DNA from: a virus
Reading direction: 5' to 3' (one strand)
Length of the DNA: 42,854 bases
Virus record (IMG/VR): IMGVR_UViG_3300010370_000003
Location: 1 to 42,854 of that record
Below are positions 7,389 through 42,854 of the stretch, one piece after another (within the stretch, counting starts at the first letter, position 1; each line of letters starts with the position of its first letter). The position numbers and the translations under genes were made by a program. The notes below the pieces were generated by a model, which was not told the DNA's origin, did not search any database, and saw nothing but the letters and a program-made list of their open reading frames with translations.

Positions 7389-9193
7389 GCACTCCTGATA
7401 GCGGCTGCGATGGCCGCGCCAATCTGCGCATTCGATACGGTGCCGGGATGCACCTTCGCGGCCTCGACGTAGTCCGGCAGCGGGTCGATGTCGATCATGA
7501 TGCGCTTCGGCGACGTGCCCTTCTGCCAGCCGTCTTGCTGCGTGCGCACCGCAGACCAGCCGGGATAGGCTACGTCAGTCGGCTCAAGCGTCGGCTCTTT
7601 GCGGAATACCAACGGCACCGTCGCGAGACCCGGCTCCGCACGCAGCGCCGTCTCGACAGCAGACCAGTTCGTATCCCACGTCGGAGTTGCGCCGACAGCA
7701 TCGTTGATGCCCTGGTCGACGTAGATGCCGACCCACTGCACGGTCTGCCCGAATGCCGCTGCCGCATCGGTAATGCGACGCACGCGCGCGATGGTCGCGC
7801 CGAGGATTGCGTTGGTGCTTGTGGTCGAGCTGTTCCAGTTCGTCGACGTCTGCGAGCCCTTGCCGCAGTTGACCGACAACCAGACAGCCGACGAGCTCTC
7901 CGCGACTTGCAGATACCACGTGCCAAGTCCACCTGGGCCGACGCCTGGCGTGGCGCTGTCCGCATTGAGAATCGCGTCGACGGGATACGTGTACACAGGC
8001 TGCTCAATCGCTGGCAGCGCCAGAGTCGTGTCCTCGCCTGTCCACGCGTAAATCGCGCCCGCTGCAGGCGGGTAGCCCGTAGGAACGCCGACCACCGACG
8101 AGCGTCCGCGCGCGCAACTCTCGCCGACGATGAGAAGCGCTTTGATGACGCGGCCATCAGTCGGAAGCCCAGTCGGCGCGAGCGGCACGGTCAGCACGCG
8201 ATAACGGTTGTCAGCAGCGACCGTCACGCTTTGCGGTTGGCCGTTGGTGCGCGTCTGGACGTTGTACGCGGTGCCTCTCGAGACGACGCGCGCGACCTGT
8301 TTCGTTGTGCCCGGCGTCGCCGACACGCTGCCGTAGTACGACCAGACTTTCGGGCCGTTGGTCGGTGCGCCCGCATTGACGTTGACCGCGTCTTGAAACG
8401 AGCTCCGATGCGTAATCGTGCGCGTCGTCGCGATGTTGTATCGCGCGCGGCAGTAAGCCGTGATTGCAGCGACTGACGCATACGACTGCATCACGCCAAT
8501 CTCAGCCATCTTGCCTTCAAACTGGCGTGTCGCGGCATAGGCCGAGTAGCCGCCAATCGAAGGCGTTACTGCCGCTGCGGTGTTGGATGGCGTGCCGTTG
8601 TACTCACCGCTGAGCAGCAGCACGCCGTCAATCCACATCTGCCAGCCGGTCGCGTTCTTGCGATAAACGAGCACGTGCGCGGTATCGCGCAGCACTTCGG
8701 AGTCGGCAGCCAGCATCGTTGCGCAGCGCGAGACGCCGCCGTTGCCGATGAAGACTTCGCCCGTCTGCGTCGTCGCGTGGTACAGCAGCGACACGCCGTT
8801 GTTAGCGGCTGTCAGGTCGCCAATGGAGTTCCAGAGGTATTTGGTCTCGCCGACTGCGGTCGACGGCCGAAAGACCATGTACAACGTCGCGTCGGTTGCG
8901 TTGTGCAGGAACGACCACGCGCTCGCGACGCCGCCGCAGTTCATGTAATCGTCGGTCGTGAACGTCAGCGAAGGCTGTCCGTTGAAGTCTGCGTCGCTGG
9001 CCGTGTACACGGGCTGATTGCCCGCAACGGCCTGCGTCGCGTGGCGCGCGCCTGCGGTCAGGTCGGTCCACTGCGACACGCTCATCGTCTCGCGATACCA
9101 CGCGAACATCGATGCGGCGGTCGGCGTGAACGACGGCTCAGGGTTGTTGACGACGCGGCGGTCAGTGCGCGCGCCAGCAGCTCGCCGCGTCAT
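7385..9193 (-). CDS. Tail spike or fibre with LamG-like and SGNH-esterase domains
   Basis: A 602-residue protein in two parts. Residues about 25-255 look like a concanavalin/LamG jelly roll: WTDLTAGARHATQ, FNGQPSLTF, then GWQMWIDGVLLLSGEYNG. From about 345 an SGNH hydrolase begins: LLIVGESCARG supplies the nucleophile Ser359, YVDQGINDA supplies the block III Asn497, and KVHPGTVSNAQIG supplies the catalytic His582 near the C-terminus. The QGxNDA form is most like sialate O-acetylesterases. Known phage proteins of this type bind surface polysaccharide and remove O-acetyl groups during adsorption; the substrate here is unknown. It is the best candidate for the host-range determinant. Confidence 0.8.
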   Translation of the reverse strand: MTRRAAGARTDRRVVNNPEPSFTPTAASMFAWYRETMSVSQWTDLTAGARHATQAVAGNQPVYTASDADFNGQPSLTFTTDDYMNCGGVASAWSFLHNATDATLYMVFRPSTAVGETKYLWNSIGDLTAANNGVSLLYHATTQTGEVFIGNGGVSRCATMLAADSEVLRDTAHVLVYRKNATGWQMWIDGVLLLSGEYNGTPSNTAAAVTPSIGGYSAYAATRQFEGKMAEIGVMQSYASVAAITAYCRARYNIATTRTITHRSSFQDAVNVNAGAPTNGPKVWSYYGSVSATPGTTKQVARVVSRGTAYNVQTRTNGQPQSVTVAADNRYRVLTVPLAPTGLPTDGRVIKALLIVGESCARGRSSVVGVPTGYPPAAGAIYAWTGEDTTLALPAIEQPVYTYPVDAILNADSATPGVGPGGLGTWYLQVAESSSAVWLSVNCGKGSQTSTNWNSSTTSTNAILGATIARVRRITDAAAAFGQTVQWVGIYVDQGINDAVGATPTWDTNWSAVETALRAEPGLATVPLVFRKEPTLEPTDVAYPGWSAVRTQQDGWQKGTSPKRIMIDIDPLPDYVEAAKVHPGTVSNAQIGAAIAAAIRSA

Positions 9194-9196
9194 GGC

Positions 9197-9565
9197 TCAG
9201 ACGACTCCGGGGCCAGTCGACCGATACCACTTGAGCGTGCCGCCCGGCGTGCTGATTGCGCGGAAGTAGCGCTGTGTCGGCGTCACGCGGAAGGGCACTT
9301 GTACGCCCGCAGGGAACGGCCCGAAGCAGGTTGCCGTCGTGACGACAGGAGTCGTGATTGTCGACGTCCCGTCCTTGCTGAACACGATGTAGAACTCGGC
9401 CGTTGACATGAACGTCACGAACTGCGGCCCGAGCGCAATCGTCGCGCCCGTAACGCCGGTGTCCTGCGCAGCCGTTGCCGTCGCAGCGGTCAAAGTGACT
9501 TGGCTAACGGCGTCCTGCTCTGGCGGGAGGACGTCTGCATCTTCGCGGAGAATCGTATCGCTCAT
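9197..9565 (-). CDS. Small tail-tip-region structural protein
   Basis: A 122-residue protein. An acidic N-terminal segment (MSDTILREDADVLPPEQD) is followed by a Thr/Ala-rich helix and then beta-rich sequence with conserved-looking FGPFPAGVQVPFRV and YFRAISTPGGTLKWYRS. It sits 3 bases before the LamG/SGNH spike gene, so it may form its base or attachment platform. No enzyme motif. Family not recognised. Confidence 0.7.
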   Translation of the reverse strand: MSDTILREDADVLPPEQDAVSQVTLTAATATAAQDTGVTGATIALGPQFVTFMSTAEFYIVFSKDGTSTITTPVVTTATCFGPFPAGVQVPFRVTPTQRYFRAISTPGGTLKWYRSTGPGVV

Positions 9566-9591
9566 GTCTGCTCTCCTCGCGCGCGCGGCGC

Positions 9592-10602
9592 TTAGTACTC
9601 AATCGCCGCGATGCTCGCGACGTAGAAGGTGCCTGCCCCGCCGCTACGGCGAAACGTGATGTCGAGCGTCTTTGCAGCAGCCGTCAGCAGCGCGCCGTCA
9701 GGCCAGCCACTCGCTTCTGACAAATCCTCGCAGAGAATGTCGGCCGGGAAATCGATGGTGTACCAAGCCCACGTCGTGCCGGGGTCGGTCACGGTCAACG
9801 TGACGTTGTTGCCGGTCGCGTTGTTGGTAATGTCGATTTCGCCGTCAGTCGTCGCGTCACTGGCGCTGCACAACGCGGCGAATCGCACGTTTCCTGTCGT
9901 GTCAGCGGACAGCAGCTTTCGCGTCAGAATCGGGACGTCGTCCAGCATGAGCACGAGCGTTGCGCTCGTCGTGGCCCAGCACTCCGCGATGTCGTCGGGC
10001 CGCGCGACGTTGAAGTATTGCCGACGCTGCGCTGCGCCGAGGGCTGCTGCGATGCCGCCGAGCGACGTGTACGGATTCTCTTGAATCGGTTCGCGCACGG
10101 CGACGCTGGTGAGCTCGACGCCGAGGTCCGTCGCATCCTTGTCGAGCACGATGCGCAGGTCTTCGTAGCAGGCGATCGACTTGACCGTGAGCGTCGCGCT
10201 CGACAGCGCATTCGTGATCGTGAGCGAGATTTCCTGCAGCGACGCCGACTTCGCGGTGAGGTCTTCGACGTAGCGCACCCACGTGCCGCCGCTGTCGACG
10301 ATGTAGTCAGCCGATGGGCCGACGTTGCCATCGATGCTCAGCGCGCAGTTGCCCTCGAGATACAGCACCCACACGCGACGCACCGCGCGGCCGGGTGGCG
10401 TCACGCGATAGCGGAACACGAAGGTCTTGTTCGACGCGATGGTCTGCTCAGGCGAGTATGCGGGCACCAGCACTTCGCCGTTGCCGTTGCACCAGTTGGC
10501 GAGCTGCGCCGCATCCAGCCACGTGCGCGCGCGGACAGCGACGCCCGCTTCGATGTCAGACTGTCGAATGATTGGCCGTGCTGCCGGAACCGTCGCGGTC
10601 AT
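9592..10602 (-). CDS. Tail tip or receptor-region protein, beta-rich
   Basis: A 336-residue protein, ATGA-coupled to 10599-11207. Two stretches look like jelly-roll or carbohydrate-binding folds: residues about 55-150 (VFRYRVTPPGRAVRRVWVLYLEG) and about 215-336 (VPILTRKLLSADTTGNV, ITNNATGNNVTLTV, TWAWYTIDFPADI). No catalytic residues are obvious. Position between the tail hub and the spike supports a tail-tip or glycan-contact role. I cannot give a family name. Confidence 0.7.
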   Translation of the reverse strand: MTATVPAARPIIRQSDIEAGVAVRARTWLDAAQLANWCNGNGEVLVPAYSPEQTIASNKTFVFRYRVTPPGRAVRRVWVLYLEGNCALSIDGNVGPSADYIVDSGGTWVRYVEDLTAKSASLQEISLTITNALSSATLTVKSIACYEDLRIVLDKDATDLGVELTSVAVREPIQENPYTSLGGIAAALGAAQRRQYFNVARPDDIAECWATTSATLVLMLDDVPILTRKLLSADTTGNVRFAALCSASDATTDGEIDITNNATGNNVTLTVTDPGTTWAWYTIDFPADILCEDLSEASGWPDGALLTAAAKTLDITFRRSGGAGTFYVASIAAIEY

Positions 10603-29157: not shown

Positions 29158-30189
29158 CTACTTCCGGCGCATCTCGCCGCGCATCCACTCGTGCAACTCG
29201 GACTGCACCGCGACGACGCCGACGAAGGTCTTGTATGTCGGCGCGGGCTTCTCTGGCCGCGCTGCTAGCTTCTGCGCCTGACGGTCGCTGCAGCCCAGCA
29301 CCGTCGCGATTTCCTTCCAGCCCTGCACGTCCCACGGCGTCGCTCGTGTCGCAGCCATAGCGTCCAGCCTCCCATCGCGCGGAATGAGCCCGCGCCCTGC
29401 CAGTCGTGAGTATAGCTCCGCGATGCCCTCGCGTCGGAGTGCGACGACGTGGCCCACCGGCACCTCGACGCCGAAGACTGCGCTTGCGTGCTCGGCGACG
29501 TCGCGTGGTGACGGGTCATCGAAGGGGTCGACGTCCTCGCCGACGCGTGGCTTGCCGCGGACTGCGAGCTTGTAACGCGGCTGCTTCTGCCGTGCGCCCT
29601 CGCCGCGCATCGGCTGCGGATGCTGTAGTGGGACGCGCGCGCCTGGTATGCCGAGCGTCGCCCATATGCAGACCTCGCGGGCCTGCTCAGCCGACAGGCG
29701 TGCTAGCGCGGGAAACGTGGTCAGCGTCCAGCCGCCGGCGAGACACTGCGCCCACAGACGCGATACCGGCGCGATGCGCTCGACGGCCCGCTGCGCGACG
29801 TCGCCCGATGCCGTGCCTGCCGCGCCGCGATGCTCAGGCTCAAATCGCGACGGCGACGACGACGAGCGCAGCGGCGCACCATCGACGCGCACCTCGTCCA
29901 GCGCGCGCAGGGCTGCTAGCACGCCACGAAACGGCGGGCGCGGCGACTCGCCCTTCGACTCGCGAGCGAGAATGAGCAGCGCCATGCGCGTTGCTTCGTC
30001 GGCCAGTCGCGCGCGGCGTGCCGAGTGCTCGGCGGTGATCGTCTCGATGGCGCGGTCGTCGAGGGCGCTGATGGCCGGATCGATGACGGGCGCGGTCTCG
30101 AGGCTCGCGACGAGCTCGACCTCCGCGACGTGCTCCGCGAGCACCTGTCGGACGTCGATGCTGAGCAGGCTGCGTGCAGGGCGCTTCAC
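29158..30189 (-). CDS. DNA-binding protein with a C-terminal helix-turn-helix
   Basis: A 343-residue protein starting at GTG 30189 (GTGA with the RusA stop); the longer frame upstream is inside RusA. The N-terminal part is helical (VRQVLAEHVAEVELVASLE). The middle is Pro/Arg-rich with a Cys near CLAGGWTLTTFPALARLS. The last 60 residues form a MerR/excisionase-like HTH: GWKEIATVLGCSDRQAQKLA, followed by ELHEWMRGEM. It probably regulates transcription or marks the packaging site. Its position, last before the late block, suits a late-gene activator. The function is inferred. Confidence 0.7.
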   Translation of the reverse strand: MKRPARSLLSIDVRQVLAEHVAEVELVASLETAPVIDPAISALDDRAIETITAEHSARRARLADEATRMALLILARESKGESPRPPFRGVLAALRALDEVRVDGAPLRSSSSPSRFEPEHRGAAGTASGDVAQRAVERIAPVSRLWAQCLAGGWTLTTFPALARLSAEQAREVCIWATLGIPGARVPLQHPQPMRGEGARQKQPRYKLAVRGKPRVGEDVDPFDDPSPRDVAEHASAVFGVEVPVGHVVALRREGIAELYSRLAGRGLIPRDGRLDAMAATRATPWDVQGWKEIATVLGCSDRQAQKLAARPEKPAPTYKTFVGVVAVQSELHEWMRGEMRRK

Positions 30190-30608
30190 GCGATGGCCTT
30201 TGCGGCGCGCTGGCGGCTCTTTGGCGGTGCTACCTCCTCGCGCTCGACCTCGCGCACGGCTACGACGACGCGAGGCTCTGCACGGTCGATATGCGTCGCG
30301 ACGAGCAGCGTCACGACCTGCGAGTCGTCGAGGTAGAGCACGCCGTTCAGCGCGTCGAGGATGGTCTTGGCGACGTTGTCGAGGTCGCGCCGCCTCTCGT
30401 CGGGCAGATACGCGTCGATGTCCACGCGATAGCGCGATGCCTTCGACGGCAGCCACGGGCCGCGAGGACGCGACGCCATCGCCACGAGGCGCACCGTGCG
30501 CTGGTAGCTGCGCTGCTTCGTCGACGTGAAGCGGCGCGTGCCGACGCTGGCCGCGCGCTGCCACGGCACGACGGGGCCGGGCACGACGAAGCGGACGTCG
30601 AGGGTCAT
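30186..30608 (-). CDS. rusA: RusA-type Holliday junction resolvase
   Basis: A 140-residue endonuclease that cuts branched DNA. The family core is clear: PGPVVPWQRA, DAYLPDERRRDLDNVAKTILDALNGVLYLDDSQV and a basic C-terminus. Asp75 and Asp77 in RRDLDN with Asp94/95 in YLDDSQV correspond to the metal-binding acidic residues of RusA. It is ATGA-coupled to its neighbour. It would resolve recombination intermediates before packaging, acting on products of the RecT-like protein and SSB on the other strand. Confidence 0.92.
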   Translation of the reverse strand: MTLDVRFVVPGPVVPWQRAASVGTRRFTSTKQRSYQRTVRLVAMASRPRGPWLPSKASRYRVDIDAYLPDERRRDLDNVAKTILDALNGVLYLDDSQVVTLLVATHIDRAEPRVVVAVREVEREEVAPPKSRQRAAKAIA

Positions 30609-30862
30609 CGCGCCTTGCCCTGCATCGCGGACATCGCCTCCTGACGTAGATGCTCTTCGCGTCGAGCTCGAGCGTCTGCCTCGTACTGCTCGCGCGCTTC
30701 TCGCGACTGCTGCGACGTGCGCCCGAAGTGCTTGGCGTGCGTCGGGCTCATGCGCTTCTCAGCCGTGGCCGCTGCGGGGTTCTTCGCGATCTCGCACGCA
30801 CCGCACTTGCCCGCGACGAAGCCGGGATGTCTGCGGCACTGCGCTGGGAGTTGACCGGCCAT
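30605..30862 (-). CDS. Small Cys/His protein
   Basis: An 85-residue protein from ATG 30862 (TGATG). It has CRRHPGFVAGKCGACEIAKNP, a possible zinc site formed by three Cys and one His, followed by a basic, Arg/Glu-rich helical tail (REAREQYEADARARREEHLRQE). It could bind nucleic acid. It continues the series of zinc proteins just upstream in the operon. Family unknown. Confidence 0.65.
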   Translation of the reverse strand: MAGQLPAQCRRHPGFVAGKCGACEIAKNPAAATAEKRMSPTHAKHFGRTSQQSREAREQYEADARARREEHLRQEAMSAMQGKAR

Positions 30863-31140
30863 CAGTTGCTCGTCCTGTCTGGTGCGATGTCGAGTTGCAC
30901 CACAATCTGTTCGAGACGCATCGGGCACCAGCGCGGCGGCACCGTGGGCGGCTCAGTCGCGAGGTCGTCGCTGCCGACGATGAGCCGGTCGTCTTTGACG
31001 CGACAGGTGTGCTCGATGCGCAGCGCGTCGGCCGACTCACCGATGATGTCAGTGGCCGTAAACGGGCACGTCTGGCAGCCGCCGAAGATGATCAAGCGCA
31101 TCGCGGGCGCAAGCGTAGCAGCGTGCGAGCACGGCGTCAT
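30862..31140 (-). CDS. Small Cys-containing protein (phage unknown)
   Basis: A 92-residue protein from ATG 31140, overlapping the preceding stop by ATGA. Cys residues are spaced CQTC, then HTCRVKDDR, then PRWCPMRLEQ; similar small proteins with a PxWCPxR ending occur in many phages, without a known role that I can cite. It may form a zinc ribbon. A longer upstream frame is a shadow of the neighbouring zinc gene. Confidence 0.65.
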   Translation of the reverse strand: MTPCSHAATLAPAMRLIIFGGCQTCPFTATDIIGESADALRIEHTCRVKDDRLIVGSDDLATEPPTVPPRWCPMRLEQIVVQLDIAPDRTSN

Positions 31141-31481
31141 CGATGCCTCGCAGACGGCCAGCGCTTGCGGCCCTCGTTGTGCCTGACCTTCGCGACCGCC
31201 ACCGAGCACACCGGTCCGCAGTAGCGCACGCGGTGCTGGTATGTCGCGCGGATGAACAGCTCGCCGCAGTGGCCGCACTTTGTCGGCGCTTCCTTGCGAT
31301 ACGGGCCCGGCCACTTCTTCGTGCCGTCGCGCGGCATGATAGGCACGCCTGACTTGAAGAATGCTGCGTTGCAGTCGTCCTGCGCTGCAGGCCAGTGTGC
31401 CGCGACTCCGCAGCCGTAGCAACGGCGCAACGGGTCACCATCCAGCGTCAAGCCGTCGTCGTAGAAGACGTGCTGTCTCAT
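31137..31481 (-). CDS. Zinc-finger quartet member D
   Basis: A 114-residue protein, fourth of four tandem paralogues. The pattern is DGL...RRCYGCGVAAHWPAAQDDC, then KKWPGPYRKEAPTKCGHCGELF and YCGPVC, so two Cys clusters as in its neighbours. It starts at ATG 31481 (ATGA). The N-terminus differs most from the others (RQHVFYDDGLTLDGDP). See member A for the common plan. Function unknown; a nucleic-acid or protein-binding role is inferred. Confidence 0.75.
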   Translation of the reverse strand: MRQHVFYDDGLTLDGDPLRRCYGCGVAAHWPAAQDDCNAAFFKSGVPIMPRDGTKKWPGPYRKEAPTKCGHCGELFIRATYQHRVRYCGPVCSVAVAKVRHNEGRKRWPSARHR

Positions 31482-31861
31482 GCCTTGCGTGCCTTTGCTG
31501 CCAGTCGCGCGCGACGATTCGCGAGGCGTTTGTTCTCGGCCGCGCACGCCAACGAGCAGGTCTTGCCGAGTGTGTTCATGACTGGACGTCTAAACGCGCG
31601 CGAGCAGACAACGCACGTCGGCAATGTTCCCGCCGCATACGGTCCTGTCCACTGGCCGTCGTGTAGCGGTCCCTGCGCGACGTCGCCTGCTGGCTGGTGC
31701 AGCAGCACCGACGAGCACGACGACTCCGCAGCAGGCCAGTGTTGCAGAACGCCGCAGCGACGACAGCGACGCAGTTTACCGCCGATTTCGCGCACACCCT
31801 CTAACTCCCAGTCGTGCGCGAGATACACGCCGACGTCCTCGAGCTCGTCGTCGTCAATCAT
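31478..31861 (-). CDS. Zinc-finger quartet member C
   Basis: A 127-residue protein, third of four tandem paralogues; start ATG 31861 (ATGA overlap). N-terminal segment YLAHDWELEGVREIGGKLRRCRRCGVLQHWPAAESSC closely matches member B. The second cluster is CVVCSRAFRRP with CSLAC, followed by a basic helix (ENKRLANRRARLAAKARK). The basic tail suggests contact with DNA or RNA. Members B and C are the most similar pair. Confidence 0.78.
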   Translation of the reverse strand: MIDDDELEDVGVYLAHDWELEGVREIGGKLRRCRRCGVLQHWPAAESSCSSVLLHQPAGDVAQGPLHDGQWTGPYAAGTLPTCVVCSRAFRRPVMNTLGKTCSLACAAENKRLANRRARLAAKARKA

Positions 31862-32247
31862 CGCTGTGCTCGCTTGAGAGCACGCTTGATGCGTTGCCGC
31901 TCTGCGCGGCGACGCCGGTCTTTGGTGTGTTTGCAGGACGAGCTGCACGTCGACGCGTTGCCGTATCCGATTGGTCGCCGGAAAGCACGCTCGCAAATCA
32001 CACACGTCACCGTCGGATGCCGCGCAAACGGGCCGGGCCATTGGTCGGCGAATAGCGGTGGAGTGTCGTGGTCGATTTCAGGGCGGTGCTCGAGGACGGT
32101 GGCACAAGACTCTGCGCTCAGAGGCCAGTGACGCAGCGCGCCGCATCGGACGCATCGATGGCGTTCGCCGCCGACCTCGCGCACGCCGTCGTGCGTCCAG
32201 TCGTGCGCCAGGTACGCGATGCGCTCGTCGACGTCGTCATGCGCCAT
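31858..32247 (-). CDS. Zinc-finger quartet member B
   Basis: A 129-residue protein from ATG 32247, overlapping the preceding gene by 11 bases. First cluster: CVRCGALRHWPLSAESC; second: CVICERAFRRP with CSSSC; the segment DQWPGPF lies between. The tail is strongly basic (KDRRRRAERQRIKRALKRAQR). The N-terminus YLAHDWTHDGVREVGGERHRC is shared with member C. Probably a recent duplicate of C. Confidence 0.78.
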   Translation of the reverse strand: MAHDDVDERIAYLAHDWTHDGVREVGGERHRCVRCGALRHWPLSAESCATVLEHRPEIDHDTPPLFADQWPGPFARHPTVTCVICERAFRRPIGYGNASTCSSSCKHTKDRRRRAERQRIKRALKRAQR

Positions 32248-32605
32248 CGCGCTGTGCCTCGCGCTTGCGTGCGTAATGTGCAGCGACGTGGTCGCGATTG
32301 CGCTCGCGCTCATGCTCGCGCACGCAGACTGGCCCGCAGTAGGCGAGCGCTCGGTATCGCTTCGGCTGTCGAAAGCGCGTCTCACAGCGCTTGCACGTGC
32401 GCCACGCGTTGTGTTTGTACGGCCCCGGCCATCGCGTGATGTCCGCTGCGAGCGTCGTGCGTTCGTCTCCAGCGCGATGCGAAATCATCCACGGGCACGC
32501 CTCGCGCGCGCCAATCCAGTGCGCCAGCATCCCGCACTTCGCGCAGCGTCTACGAGGCTCGCCCCATTCAAGCACGCCGTCGATTTTCCACGTGTGCGGC
32601 TTCAT
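32237..32605 (-). CDS. Zinc-finger quartet member A
   Basis: A 122-residue protein from ATG 32605, coupled to the helicase gene by ATGA. It has Cys21-x2-Cys24 with a following HW and Cys37, then WPGPYKHN and a second cluster Cys71-x2-Cys74 and Cys90-x3-Cys94. The second cluster resembles a treble-clef finger. The C-terminus is basic with many Arg. The four neighbours repeat this plan, so the block arose by tandem duplication. No catalytic His or Asn of HNH nucleases is clearly placed, so I call it a zinc-binding protein only. Confidence 0.78.
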   Translation of the reverse strand: MKPHTWKIDGVLEWGEPRRRCAKCGMLAHWIGAREACPWMISHRAGDERTTLAADITRWPGPYKHNAWRTCKRCETRFRQPKRYRALAYCGPVCVREHERERNRDHVAAHYARKREAQRDGA

Positions 32606-33921
32606 CGACGTCCTCGTCGGTCGGTGTAGAGCGTTGAATCTTCGACGGCGTCTACCTCTTTGAGACTGCCGCCCGCGCCGCGCTTGAACTGGAACGTGAC
32701 GCCATTGCCGCCCGTCTTGCCCTTGACGATGCGGCCGTGGACGACAGCGCTGTCCTGCTCCTCTTTGCGCCACAGCACGATGACGAGTTCCGCGAGGTGC
32801 GCGAGGTCGCGTGAGTCGCGCAGGTCATGCTTGCCGGGTTCCTTGCCCTCGCCACGCTCGACGGTGAGTTGCGATGCGAGCCAGACCGGGATGCCGAGTC
32901 GCGACGCAGCGGCCTTGATGCGCGACGCAATGGTGCGCACCTCAAGACGCGTGTTCTCGGTCTTCGTGCTGCACGTGATTGCCTGTGCGTAGTCGACGAA
33001 GACGACGTCGCAGTGCATGACGCGCACGAGCCGCGCCATCTCGCGCACGACGTCGGAGTCAGTCGCGCCGGGGATGCACGACGTCACGAATCCCGCGGTC
33101 GGTCCCGCTTGCCGCGTTGTCGCGACGGCGTGCGCGATGCGCTCGTGGTCTTCGTAGCTGAGCTGCTTGGCGCGGATGGCGTGCCCGCTGACGCGCGAGA
33201 ATCGCGACAGCAGACGGTCCTCGATAAGCTGGCGCGGGTCTTCGATGCTGATGTATCCGAGCAGCAGCTTCTGCGCGCCGAGCTTCTCGCCCATCGTGAG
33301 CGCCAGCGAACTCTTGCCGACGTTGGTGTCTGCGCCGACGATGGCGAGGTCGCCGGGGCCGAGGCCCGCGATAGCCTCGTCGACGGCGCGGATACCTGTT
33401 GGCACCAGTCCAATCTGGTCAGTGCTGGTGGCGCGCAGGTAGGCTCGCTCGACGCCCTCCGCGAGCGAGAACGACTCGACGCTCGACGCTGCGTCGTCCT
33501 CGAGCGCGGCTGCGCAGTGAACGGCAGCGCCCGCGACGTTCTCGGTGCGCACGGCCGCGAGCGCGTCTAGCAGGTGCCGCTCCTTGCGACGCAGCCCTGC
33601 GAGCGCGAGCACGCGTGCGTGGACGACCGCGACGTCGACGAGCAGCGCGCCGCCAGTCGAGAGCGCGTACACGACGTCGGGACCGCCGAGCGCGTCGAGC
33701 TGCTGGCGCTGTCGGAGGTGCGAGACGACGGTGGCTTCGCTGACGCGCAGAGACGCGTCTAGCAGGCTGCGTACGGCGTTCGCGACGGCCTCGTGTAGCG
33801 GCACGGTCCAGGCGTCAGCGGGGCAGCCGTACGCGTCGGCAACGCGCGCATCGGCCAGCATCGCAGCGAGTAGGGCGCGCTCGGCGCTGACGTCGCAGAG
33901 CTGCTCAGCCTTCGAGGTCAC
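32602..33921 (-). CDS. Replicative DNA helicase, DnaB-like
   Basis: A 439-residue RecA-fold helicase. Residues 1-130 match the DnaB N-terminal domain (AERALLAAMLADARVADAY, FSL at 151). Walker A is GADTNVGKSS (196-205), the catalytic Glu is in YISIEDP (Glu227), and Walker B is VVFVDYAQ (306-313). A later motif (IPVWLASQLTVERGE, then DLRDSRDLAHLAELVIVLWRKE) matches H3/H4 regions. It uses GTG 33921 and overlaps the initiator gene by 17 bases. It should form a hexamer that opens phage forks. Confidence 0.9.
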   Translation of the reverse strand: MTSKAEQLCDVSAERALLAAMLADARVADAYGCPADAWTVPLHEAVANAVRSLLDASLRVSEATVVSHLRQRQQLDALGGPDVVYALSTGGALLVDVAVVHARVLALAGLRRKERHLLDALAAVRTENVAGAAVHCAAALEDDAASSVESFSLAEGVERAYLRATSTDQIGLVPTGIRAVDEAIAGLGPGDLAIVGADTNVGKSSLALTMGEKLGAQKLLLGYISIEDPRQLIEDRLLSRFSRVSGHAIRAKQLSYEDHERIAHAVATTRQAGPTAGFVTSCIPGATDSDVVREMARLVRVMHCDVVFVDYAQAITCSTKTENTRLEVRTIASRIKAAASRLGIPVWLASQLTVERGEGKEPGKHDLRDSRDLAHLAELVIVLWRKEEQDSAVVHGRIVKGKTGGNGVTFQFKRGAGGSLKEVDAVEDSTLYTDRRGRR

Positions 33922-34870
33922 GCCACTTCTCCTTCGGCTTCGGCGGTGGCGGCAACTGACCAGCCCAGTCGTCCAGCCACAAATGCGGCTGCGTGCTCTC
34001 GTTGCGGTTCTCGCGGTGCTTGACCCACTGCTCGAAAGCTAGCGCGCACAGGTCGTCGGGCGCTAGGTCGAGTTTCGCAGCCATCTCGCGAATCTCCTCG
34101 ACGACCTCATCGGCACGAGCAGCCATCGCGAATCGCTGCGTCGGTACGCTCCACGGCCTGCCGCGCACTTCGCCGACGACACGCTCAAGCGCTCGACGGT
34201 GGAACGAAGAGTCAGCAACCAAAGGCAATTGGGTCGTGTTCGCTGGTACAGGTCGGAGGTCGGAGGTACAGGTCAGGCGCGAGGGTATCGCGAGTGCCTC
34301 GCCAACCTCTCGCGGAACACTCGCGAGTGTCTCGCGAGCAGGCGCGGTGTCTTGGTTTTGGTTTTGGTATGGTACGGAATGGAATGGTATGGAATGGGTT
34401 GACGAACGCTCGAAGACTTGCACTCGCGAACTTCGCGCGTCGTTCGTGCGAACGTGCTCGATGCTGTTCGCGCGAACATTTCCAGATTCATCAATAGATT
34501 CGCGGCCCGTCTCTTCCCGGCGTGCCCGCTGATTAGCGCGCAACCGTCGCATTCTGTCGGCTGATTCGCGTCGCGTTTGGTCAACGTCTGCACGCGCAGC
34601 CTGTCGTTCGGTCCACTGATGGAAGCGGAAACCAGTCTCGGTTTCCTCCCAAAGTCGCACGCGAACCAGCTCCTGCGCGGCCTTCGCATGATGCCGGATG
34701 CCGAGCCGCGCGACCTTGGACGCGCTGATCTCACCATCGGTCAGGTGCTTTCCACACCACGATCCAGCCAGCGTCCAGAGCGCGATCGCGTCGCTCGCGT
34801 GCTTGCCCGTAAGCAACGCCTCGACCTTCGGATGGTCGTGGAAGCCGTCGTCAACTCTGAACCAGACCAT
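33905..34870 (-). CDS. Replication initiator-like protein
   Basis: A 321-residue protein. The N-terminus (VWFRVDDGFHDHPKVEALLTG, then LWTLAGSWCGKHLTDGEISASKVARLGI) is the HTH type common to phage replication initiators or organisers. The middle is a low-complexity stretch rich in Ser, His, Gln and Asn coded by the A/T- and repeat-rich DNA at 34245-34400. The C-terminus (AARADEVVEEIREMAAKLDLAPDDL, ALAFEQWVKHRENR) is helical and could load helicase. Start ATG 34870, 26 bases from the operator at 34896. It is the first gene of the replication block and overlaps the helicase. Confidence 0.75.
   Translation of the reverse strand: MVWFRVDDGFHDHPKVEALLTGKHASDAIALWTLAGSWCGKHLTDGEISASKVARLGIRHHAKAAQELVRVRLWEETETGFRFHQWTERQAARADVDQTRRESADRMRRLRANQRARREETGRESIDESGNVRANSIEHVRTNDARSSRVQVFERSSTHSIPFHSVPYQNQNQDTAPARETLASVPREVGEALAIPSRLTCTSDLRPVPANTTQLPLVADSSFHRRALERVVGEVRGRPWSVPTQRFAMAARADEVVEEIREMAAKLDLAPDDLCALAFEQWVKHRENRNESTQPHLWLDDWAGQLPPPPKPKEKWRDLEG
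34245..34400. other. Candidate replication origin inside the initiator gene
   Basis: Several repeat types concentrate here. GGTACAGGTC occurs at 34245 and 34265 (20-base spacing). TCGCGAG-type words occur four times between 34280 and 34340, including perfect palindromes ACTCGCGAGT (34319-34328) and CTCGCGAG (34331-34338). Next comes a run of GGTTTT and GGAATGG-type repeats (34352-34400), less GC-rich than the surroundings. Iterons followed by an easily melted tract inside an initiator gene is the lambda O layout. That analogy is inferred. Confidence 0.5.
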
Positions 34871-38046: not shown

Positions 38047-38548
38047 CACGACGACCAAGACGGGACTGCGGCTTTACGAACTTGCACCGGCATACGCGTA
38101 CCTGATCGACGCGCTCGACGAGGACGGCGATGCCAGCGACGGGCACGCGCACCTCGACGCGCTGAGCGATGCCATCGACCAGAAGGCGGCCAGCATCGCG
38201 CACGTGCTCGCGCAACTCGACGCCGAGGCCGAGGCTTTGCGCGCGGAGGAGAAGCGACTGGCGGCGCGGCGGCAGTCTCGCGAGCGGCGCGCGGAGTCGC
38301 TGCGTGACTATCTGCGCATGAGCCTCGATGCGGCGGGCGTCGCGAAAATCAAGAGCGCGACGCACACCATCAGCGTCGGCGACGGCCCGCAGCGCGTCGT
38401 CGTCGAGGACGAGGGCAGCGTGCCCGCCGAATACCTCCGCACGAAAATTGAGGTTGACAAGCGCAGCATCCTTGAGGCAATGAAGGCGCACGGCGAATGC
38501 GTGCCTGGGACGCGCATCGAGCGGACGCGCGTGTTGCGCATCAAGTGA
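38039..38548 (+). CDS. Gp157-family protein
   Basis: A 169-residue protein from ATG 38039 with GGAG 8 bases upstream. Family signs: LRLYELAPAYAYLIDAL at the N-terminus, a long coiled coil (LDAEAEALRAEEKRLAARRQSRERRAESL) and a C-terminal domain with YLRMSLDAAGVAKIKSATHTISV and KIEVDKRSILEAMKAHGECVPG. Members of this siphovirus family are encoded beside recombination genes, and one was linked to phage resistance in Streptococcus; the molecular role is not settled. It is followed at once by the RecT-like gene, in keeping. Confidence 0.82.
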   Translation: MSDTTTKTGLRLYELAPAYAYLIDALDEDGDASDGHAHLDALSDAIDQKAASIAHVLAQLDAEAEALRAEEKRLAARRQSRERRAESLRDYLRMSLDAAGVAKIKSATHTISVGDGPQRVVVEDEGSVPAEYLRTKIEVDKRSILEAMKAHGECVPGTRIERTRVLRIK

Positions 38549-38574
38549 ATCCCCTATCCAAACAAGGTGAAGAC

Positions 38575-39462
38575 ATGAGCGATATCATCAAGACCACCAG
38601 CGGCCTCGACATGGTCGCGAGTCTGTCGGACGTGCTGCGACTGGCCGACACGCTGGCGCAGGCGCGCGGCGGTTTCATCCCGTCGCACTTCCAGAACTCG
38701 GCGCAGGTTGCGGCGGTCATCCTTGCCGGGCGCGAGCTCGGCGTCGGGCCGATGGCGAGCTTGCGCAGCTTCTACCTCGTCGGCGGCAAGCTCGGCATGG
38801 ACGCCAGCTTCGTGTCGGGCCGTATGCTCGCGCATGGCGTCGGCCTCGAGTGGCTGCGCGACGACGACGAGTGCGCGTCGGTGCGTCTCTCGCGCGCGGG
38901 GATGCCGCCGTACACGTCGACGTTCTCGCGTGCCGACGCCGAGCGTGCGGGCCTCTGGAACACGGCAACGTGGCGCAAGTATCCGCGCGCGATGCTGCGT
39001 GCGAGGGCCATCACGGCAGGCGCTCGCGCGTATGCCGCGGACTGTTTCGCTGGCAGCGTCTACACGCCCGACGAACTGCGCAGCGGCAACGTCGCCGACG
39101 ACCGCGACGAGCAGCCCGCGCAGCGCGTCCAGCAGCCCGCAGAGCGCGTCGAGGCTGCGGCACCGCCTGCCGTCATCGAGGCGCATGGCGAGCCCGCTAC
39201 GCAGCCCGCAGCGGCCGACGATGTGGCCGGACGAATCGTCGCGGCGTACGACGTGGCGTCGACCGACGTCGAGATTGCGCAGCTGCGCACGGCGCTCGTC
39301 GCAGCGCACTGGCAGCAACTCTCGCGCGACGACCGTGCTCGCGTGACGTCGGCAGCGCACCGTGCGCGGCAGCGCGTCGAGGCCGCACGACAGGGACTGA
39401 TTGCGCAGCTCGAGGCTGAGCGGCGCGCGGACATCGCAGAAGAGGAGGATGACGACCGATGA
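38575..39462 (+). CDS. RecT-like single-strand annealing protein
   Basis: A 295-residue protein from ATG 38575 behind CAAACAAGGTGA. The N-terminal two thirds resemble the RecT/Bet family as found in GC-rich phages: DVLRLADTLAQARGGFIP, AAVILAGRELGVGPMASLRSFYLVGGKLGMDASFV, GVGLEWLRDD, then WRKYPRAMLRARAITAGARAYA. The C-terminal third is Pro/Ala-rich linker and coiled coil. It anneals complementary strands for recombination-dependent replication with the SSB next to it. No exonuclease gene is seen nearby. Confidence 0.72.
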   Translation: MSDIIKTTSGLDMVASLSDVLRLADTLAQARGGFIPSHFQNSAQVAAVILAGRELGVGPMASLRSFYLVGGKLGMDASFVSGRMLAHGVGLEWLRDDDECASVRLSRAGMPPYTSTFSRADAERAGLWNTATWRKYPRAMLRARAITAGARAYAADCFAGSVYTPDELRSGNVADDRDEQPAQRVQQPAERVEAAAPPAVIEAHGEPATQPAAADDVAGRIVAAYDVASTDVEIAQLRTALVAAHWQQLSRDDRARVTSAAHRARQRVEAARQGLIAQLEAERRADIAEEEDDDR

Positions 39463-41743: not shown

Positions 41744-41958
41744 CGACGCTGTACCAAGGCACCTCACCACTACCCGTCATCGAGGTCGGGATGCGCCTGC
41801 GCGACGGCTGGGGCTGCGTCTGGCGCGTGGTCGAGGTGCTCGACGGCGGGCTGACTGTCGGGCTGCAATCGGCGCGCGAGGGCTCGCGATTGTGGCTTGA
41901 CGGCGCGAGCGTGCGTGTGTGGGGCTTGGCTGAGGACTGGACGACGTGCGCTATCTGA
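41740..41958 (+). CDS. Small beta-rich protein before the methyltransferase
   Basis: A 72-residue protein with a beta pattern (IEVGMRLRDGWGCVWRVVEVLDGGLTVGLQ) and several Trp, like a small SH3-type fold. The end overlaps the methyltransferase start by 13 bases, so translation is linked. It may help or modulate the enzyme. Family unknown. Confidence 0.7.
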   Translation: MTTLYQGTSPLPVIEVGMRLRDGWGCVWRVVEVLDGGLTVGLQSAREGSRLWLDGASVRVWGLAEDWTTCAI

Positions 41959-42854
41959 GCGTGTGCAGCGGCATCGAGGCCGCAAGCGTGGCGTGGCACT
42001 CGATGGGATGGGAGCCTGTCGCGTTCAGTGAGATTGACCCGTTCGCGAGTGCGGTGCTCGCGGCGAGATTTCCTGACGTGCCGAATCTCGGAACGATGGA
42101 GAACTACCGTGAGTGGAACATCGAACAAGGTGCAATTGACGTTCTCGTGGGTGGAACTCCCTGCCAATCGTTCAGCGTCGCAGGACTCAGACGCGGACTT
42201 GATGACCCACGTGGGAACCTCGCGCTCGTCTATCTTGGACTGGTTGACCGATTCCGGCCTCGCTACATTGTCTGGGAAAACGTGCCCGGTGTCTTGTCAT
42301 CCAGCGGAGGACGGGACTTTGGTGCCTTCATCGGGGCGCTGGCGCAGCTCGGGTATGGGTTCGCCTGGCGAGTGCTGGACGCTCAGTGGTGCCGAGTGGA
42401 CAGCCACCCTCGTGCCGTCCCACAGCGACGGAGGCGTGTGTTCGTTGTCGGATGTGCTGGAGGCGACTGGAGACGTGCCGCCTCGGTTTTACTTGAGCCC
42501 GAAGGCGTCGCTGGGGATCCTCCGACGCGCCGAACGTCGCGGGAAGGCACTCCCCGAAGCCCTGCGGCTGGCGCTCGAGACGGTAACATCGCGGACGTGA
42601 GCCCGACCGTCGCCGCGAAGTGGAGCAAGGGCACGGGCGGGCCCGCCGGCGACGAGGTGCAGAACCTTGTGCCGGACGTGGAGCCCACGCCCTTCGACAC
42701 GACGCAGATCACGCACCCCGCTAACCGCTCGCAACCGCAGCCGGGCGACCCATGTCACCCGCTCGCGCGCGGAGCTCACGCGCCTGCGGTGGCGTTTCAA
42801 TGGCCTGTCGATGTCGCGGACCCTATCACGGCGAACGAAGGCGCGACGTACAGC
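41946..42854 (+). CDS. Cytosine-5 DNA methyltransferase, N-terminal part (continues at base 1)
   Basis: This is a Dcm-type enzyme that transfers a methyl group from AdoMet to C5 of cytosine in DNA. It starts at GTG 41946, overlapping the end of the preceding gene by 13 bases. Visible motifs are motif I around CSGIEAASVAW (residues 7-17), the acidic FSEID (27-31), the catalytic motif IV GGTPCQSFS with Cys73, ENVPGV (motif VI) and QRRRRVFVVG (motif VIII). The target-recognition segment follows and runs off the window edge. Joined to 1-360 it gives 381 residues, normal for the family. It probably protects phage DNA from host restriction; the recognition sequence cannot be read from here. No partner endonuclease is visible, so it looks like an orphan enzyme. 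Confidence 0.95.
   Translation, partial: MRYLSVCSGIEAASVAWHSMGWEPVAFSEIDPFASAVLAARFPDVPNLGTMENYREWNIEQGAIDVLVGGTPCQSFSVAGLRRGLDDPRGNLALVYLGLVDRFRPRYIVWENVPGVLSSSGGRDFGAFIGALAQLGYGFAWRVLDAQWCRVDSHPRAVPQRRRRVFVVGCAGGDWRRAASVLLEPEGVAGDPPTRRTSREGTPRSPAAGARDGNIADVSPTVAAKWSKGTGGPAGDEVQNLVPDVEPTPFDTTQITHPANRSQPQPGDPCHPLARGAHAPAVAFQWPVDVADPITANEGATYS
42732..42854. repeat. Terminal redundancy, right copy
   Basis: This is the identical copy of bases 1-123. It lies inside the methyltransferase gene, in its variable target-recognition part. That is an unlikely place for a biological terminus, so an assembly overlap of a circular map is the simplest reading. Confidence 0.95.

Follow-up and report, generated by a model that had tools for sequence, protein, structure and literature searches.

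Why should a phage genome of about 43 kb, in which space is dear, carry an ordered set of tandem paralogues next to its replicative helicase gene, and what would the products do? Such a set, kept over large divergence, is unusual in genomes of this size. The question is raised by a virus record of 42,854 bp, which was analysed at its full length and is referred to here as the window.

Array genes and their neighbours in the window

Four open reading frames on the minus strand, described in the first-pass annotation as tandem, paralogous zinc-finger genes between a helicase gene and rusA, were present, each with an ATG start. They are G1 (32237..32605, ATG at 32605, 122 aa), the helicase-proximal copy (type A) and a predicted two-zinc-module protein; G2 (31858..32247, ATG at 32247, 129 aa), a type B protein with an acidic N-terminal extension; G3 (31478..31861, ATG at 31861, 127 aa), also of type B; and G4 (31137..31481, ATG at 31481, 114 aa), the RusA-side copy (type C), which starts with MRQHVFYDDG and is the best conserved of the array. 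Upstream, also on the minus strand, are genes for a DnaB-like replicative helicase (32602..33921; Pfam DnaB_C, E 8.7e-33; phrog_19, E 2.4e-51) and a replication initiation protein (33905..34870; phrog_2447, E 1.2e-34). The overlap of every array gene with its neighbours was borne out, and is 4 bp for DnaB/G1, G2/G3, G3/G4 and G4/next gene and 11 bp for G1/G2; these overlaps suggest that the genes may be translationally coupled.

The placement between helicase and RusA held at one end, where the array abuts the DnaB gene. At the other end, two small Cys-containing genes separate G4 from the gene for a RusA-like Holliday-junction resolvase (30186..30608, minus strand; Pfam RusA, E 6.9e-18; phrog_34, E 2.9e-22). 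The product of the nearer one (30862..31140, minus strand) is a 92-aa protein outside the array family with the pattern CxxCPF ... C ... WCP, for which a family match was sought and none was found; its gene comes after the array in all relatives that extend that far. The other (about 30605..30862, minus strand) encodes a protein of about 85 aa with a C-H-C-C cluster and a charged tail, and is conserved in relatives. A RecT-like single-strand annealing protein is encoded on the opposite strand at 38497-39462 (phrog_561, E 9.3e-32).

Paralogy and selection

G2, G3 and G4 are 33-38% identical to G1, and 18 columns are invariant in the four-way alignment. Local alignment scores were compared with those of 2000 shuffles in which every C, H and W was fixed in place; all six pairs scored above every shuffle, with z values from 4.8 (G2-G4, the weakest) to 14.9 (G2-G3). 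Tandem paralogy was thereby upheld, and chance Cys spacing was rejected as the source of the likeness. In orthologous pairs dN/dS was 0.00-0.49, and in none was it above 1, so that the four ORFs are genes under purifying selection and not chance ORFs. The middle copies gave values of 0.28-0.49, against 0.10 for DnaB in the same phage pair. No family in Pfam or NCBIfam reached threshold for the array proteins; the array is a real, selected and conserved family without a name in either collection.

Dosage selection and diversification had both been put forward to account for the number of copies. Identity is about 25-45% among the four copies of the window and reaches 98% for position-matched copies in other phages (G4 and its counterparts in the nearest phages, 90-98%), in agreement with diversification. 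Near-identical copies were absent from every phage, and in a tree of 69 modules, in which many forks are weak because the proteins are short, the copies clustered by position and not by phage; dosage amplification was rejected on these grounds. Since the copies are mutually divergent yet orthologous by position, the duplications are old and the copies have become specialised, and the history of the array is one of ancient diversification rather than recent amplification for dosage.

Architecture of the array proteins

The array proteins are 109-183 aa long, and 12 columns are invariant in 33 members (H4, G10, G15, C21, C24, H29, W30, C37, C69, C72, C88 and C92 in G4 numbering). The N-module, H-x16-C-x2-C-x4-HW-x6-C, contributes one His, three Cys and the His-Trp pair, and the C-module, CxxC-x15-CxxxC, four Cys; the remaining two are Gly. 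The modules are joined by a W-x-G-P-[YF] linker, and a helix leads from the C-module into a basic tail. A DGV/DGL motif, which the first-pass annotation had placed at the protein start, is present behind the invariant His and not at the start itself (about residues 9-11 in G1 and G4, and 20-23 in G2 and G3, where G3 has EGV). The character of zinc proteins is supported by the predicted ligands, which are invariant across the 33 members, and each protein is predicted from them to hold two zinc atoms; in the N-module both His4 and His29 are invariant, and either may be the His that binds zinc. Across the 33 members there is no invariant Asp, Glu or Asn, nor an invariant His in the hairpin of the C-module. 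Basic proteins predominate (pI mostly 8.5-11), and the net charge of the last 30 residues is 0 to +11.

AlphaFold models of G3 (m4212142171c2, pLDDT 82.0) and G4 (mf55fedea4249, pLDDT 71.6) follow one order, namely hairpin, CxxC, short helix, linker, CxxC and a long C-terminal helix that begins at the last two Cys (the second ligand pair); the two models are not independent, most of the alignment being common to both. With this common order of elements and the alignment scores above, the similarity exceeds the bare Cys spacing, without a shared fold, that had been named beforehand as the finding that would speak against the family. The C-module may be called treble-clef-like: its ligands are invariant, the placement of its helix is modelled and the structure matches are weak.

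Distribution and array types

The array was found in 24 records including the window, some of them near-identical, by viral contig searches and a profile scan of the fetched DNA. A count of copies in related phages, as had been proposed, gave a modal number of four; whole arrays have four copies, or five in L026, and the range across the phage group is three to five. A DNA pattern for the N-module was found in 58 stretches of viral contigs, of which the full-length relatives all belonged to the same phage group, and in seven larger records of this group the family is restricted to the array. Among isolated phages, tblastn gave no match for G1 and G3 and one insignificant match for G4; in bacterial genomes, no relative was found for the A-type alignment or for the large terminase. 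Within the collections searched, the family is confined to one group of uncultured phages. The open-licence literature yielded no account of an array of this kind.

Type A lies beside the helicase gene (G1 has orthologues at the matching place in L022, L023, L012-L017, L026 and others), type B in the middle in one or two copies, and type C last in the sub-group of the window. Type D follows C in L016, L024, L025 and L026, and types E and F replace C in L017 and L029-L036. Type F (183 aa; L017:3466-4017, with counterparts in L029-L036) carries a third CxxC..CxxxC module in its C-terminal part. Within their own sub-groups, types A and C are well conserved; types G and H each occur in one or two phages only, which amounts to turnover in the middle of the array. 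One protein, L008_1, is a chimera: its N-half is of type A (86% to L013_1), and its C-half is nearest to type G (55%). In types A, B and C, variation is greatest in the linker. In L026, an insert of about 500 bp (2089-2592) separates array genes C and D.

Gene neighbourhood in related phages

Downstream, the order array, small Cys gene, small gene, RusA, ORF and small terminase is kept across relatives, and 23 of the 27 array junctions without an insert have a 4-bp overlap. Upstream, DnaB is encoded in ten records and an SF2 helicase (ResIII, DEAD, Helicase_C) in L025, L032 and L034; the assumption that the array always follows DnaB was found to be wrong from these three contigs, which were checked. 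The arrays of L025 and L026 are closely related and their helicases differ, so the helicase has been replaced and the array retained. The constancy of the array, whether DnaB or an unrelated SF2 helicase lies upstream, speaks against its being tied closely to DnaB in function.

Methyltransferase genes are inserted in or beside the array in several relatives. A C5 cytosine methyltransferase gene is found between A and B in L012, L013, L015, L034 and L035, while in L010/L021 it immediately precedes B. Genes for N4/N6 methyltransferases are present in L022 and L029-L033, either between the array and RusA or within the first part of rusA; these calls were made with Pfam on L012, L034, L022 and L030, and in the remaining records by likeness to these. 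In L022 the N4/N6 methyltransferase gene (8874-9760) is inserted after about codon 22 of rusA and is followed by a second RusA N-terminus, as if the insert had brought or copied the start of its target gene.

Comparison with known families

The closest profile was phrog_1271 ('HNH endonuclease'), which matched 24 of the 33 members at E <= 0.01 (best E 3.8e-7) with modest scores, and this match may be due in part to Cys spacing. The alignment takes in both zinc modules and falls on the zinc-binding region in front of the HNH part: the four proteins of the window cover profile positions of about 174-267 and end before the HNH part, whereas a genuine HNH protein of the relative G002 (Pfam HNH, E 9.2e-13) covers positions 262-325. 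The array proteins differ from PHROG 1271 in that this catalytic part (about 262-325) is missing and in forming tandem sets; the catalytic beta-beta-alpha-metal HNH motif is absent, and Pfam HNH matched none of G1-G4. The zinc region of NinG/Rap (phrog_171, a lambda-type junction nuclease), which like the array is encoded among replication and recombination genes, is matched by the C-module in 6 of the 33 members. The match is confined to positions 34-76 of a 452-position profile and only about 45 residues align; the nuclease domain of NinG/Rap is missing from the array proteins, and the array phages have RusA for junctions.

A sequence search of solved structures gave noise only. Foldseek and VIA-align gave no strong match to either model, those to C1, YacG and WW domains being at noise level; the best viral Foldseek matches to the G4 model were HNH nucleases, with NinG also listed, and all were weak. 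The C-module of G1 matched the Vms1-associating treble clef (VATC, PF18716) at E 0.012, but its 15.9 bits fall below the curated cut-off of 26.6, and G1 is not a member. The array proteins, as modelled, resemble YacG in having a CxxC, a hairpin, a helix that bears the second pair of ligands, and a tail at the C-terminus, and YacG is a weak structural match; it is, however, a single 65-aa zinc-finger protein, whereas the array proteins have two modules, and no YacG sequence-family match to them was found in Pfam/NCBIfam. The array adds a variant to the known zinc-finger/HNH-related proteins and is not a new kind of system.

Possible functions of the array

The reading placed first, to which about an even chance is given, is that the array encodes zinc proteins without nuclease function that act in phage replication and recombination. 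They would derive from the zinc-binding region ahead of the catalytic domain in phage HNH endonucleases, or have a common origin with it. They would attach to nucleic acid, or bring a partner protein to it, without cutting, and translational coupling would keep their synthesis in pace with that of the helicase and on towards RusA. Binding of nucleic acid or protein is suggested by the type of fold and the basic tail, and the role in replication or recombination by the position of the genes. Paralogy, co-directional overlapping genes, kept order, purifying selection, occurrence in one phage group and a profile match to the pre-HNH region only were all observed and support this reading; against it count the faster evolution of the middle copies than of the helicase, the lack of a Pfam or NCBIfam family at threshold, the modest phrog_1271 match, the want of a strong structure match and the constancy of the array beside either helicase. 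As replication accessories, the proteins would be a new small component of the phage replication/recombination operon, one that outlives exchange of the adjoining helicase and belongs to no named family in Pfam or NCBIfam.

Residual cutting by these proteins, as cut-down HNH/His-Me nucleases acting through the invariant His29 or His4, would fit the profile matches to phrog_1271 and NinG and has a precedent in YbcO (DUF1364), a small treble clef of prophages for which a His-Me nuclease function has been predicted on the basis of a conserved hairpin His (PMC4999995). The match ends before the HNH catalytic part, however, and with no invariant Asp, Glu or Asn and no invariant His in the C-module hairpin such activity is very improbable. 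Another role would be that of YacG-like inhibitors or protectors of host gyrase whose C-module binds GyrB, as the zinc finger and C-terminal region of YacG do (PMC10886550). Among small domains, YacG bound to gyrase (4tma) matched the G4 model best (target TM up to 0.63, E about 1); for the G3 model it took the second row in VIA-align, where the alignment covers the C-module (Z 2.8). These scores are at noise level, any such treble clef could match because YacG belongs to the broad TRASH group of treble clefs (PMC4999995), and the extra N-module and several divergent copies would be left unexplained, so that this role is hardly to be expected. Small regulators of transcription or translation in the early/late switch, one per target, would be compatible with the size, zinc modules and basic tail and with the conserved identity at each position; they are nevertheless quite unlikely, as no regulatory family was matched in Pfam, PHROGs or NCBIfam and a helix-turn-helix or similar domain is absent.

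After nuclease-less binding, a counter-defence function was ranked second and these three roles as less likely. Under this reading, raised for host defence proteins in the first-pass annotation, the paralogues would be inhibitors or decoys, diversified into a panel of specificities against restriction or other defence proteins of the host. In its favour are the old, divergent copies, a copy set that varies among relatives (types G, H, E and F), the fast-evolving middle copies and the chimera L008_1, and the methyltransferase insertions are circumstantial support. Against this, types A and C are conserved within sub-groups as for core functions, dN/dS never exceeds 1, methyltransferases can insert at many places in phage genomes and the C5 methyltransferase gene of the window is not at the array, and no known anti-defence family was matched in Pfam, PHROGs or NCBIfam (the scope of PADLOC is defence, not anti-defence). 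We regard counter-defence as unlikely, and as about equally unlikely a particular form of it, a phage-group-specific panel of divergent two-zinc adaptors, each copy neutralising a different host restriction or defence protein. Such a panel would have arisen through tandem duplication, through gains and losses of copies and through exchange of modules, at a locus that also accepts methyltransferase genes. If a counter-defence function were true, the diversification and the methyltransferase neighbours would be explained, the array would serve as a list of candidates and the methyltransferase slots would mark where to look in other phages.

The C5 methyltransferase gene of the window itself lies away from the array (41949-42854 and 1-342). 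Over 170 residues its product shares 96% identity with the L012 enzyme, and as the two genes are at different places in their genomes the gene has moved. The gene spans the ends of the record, which have a 123-bp direct repeat in common, and the record probably represents a closed circular molecule of about 42.7 kb.
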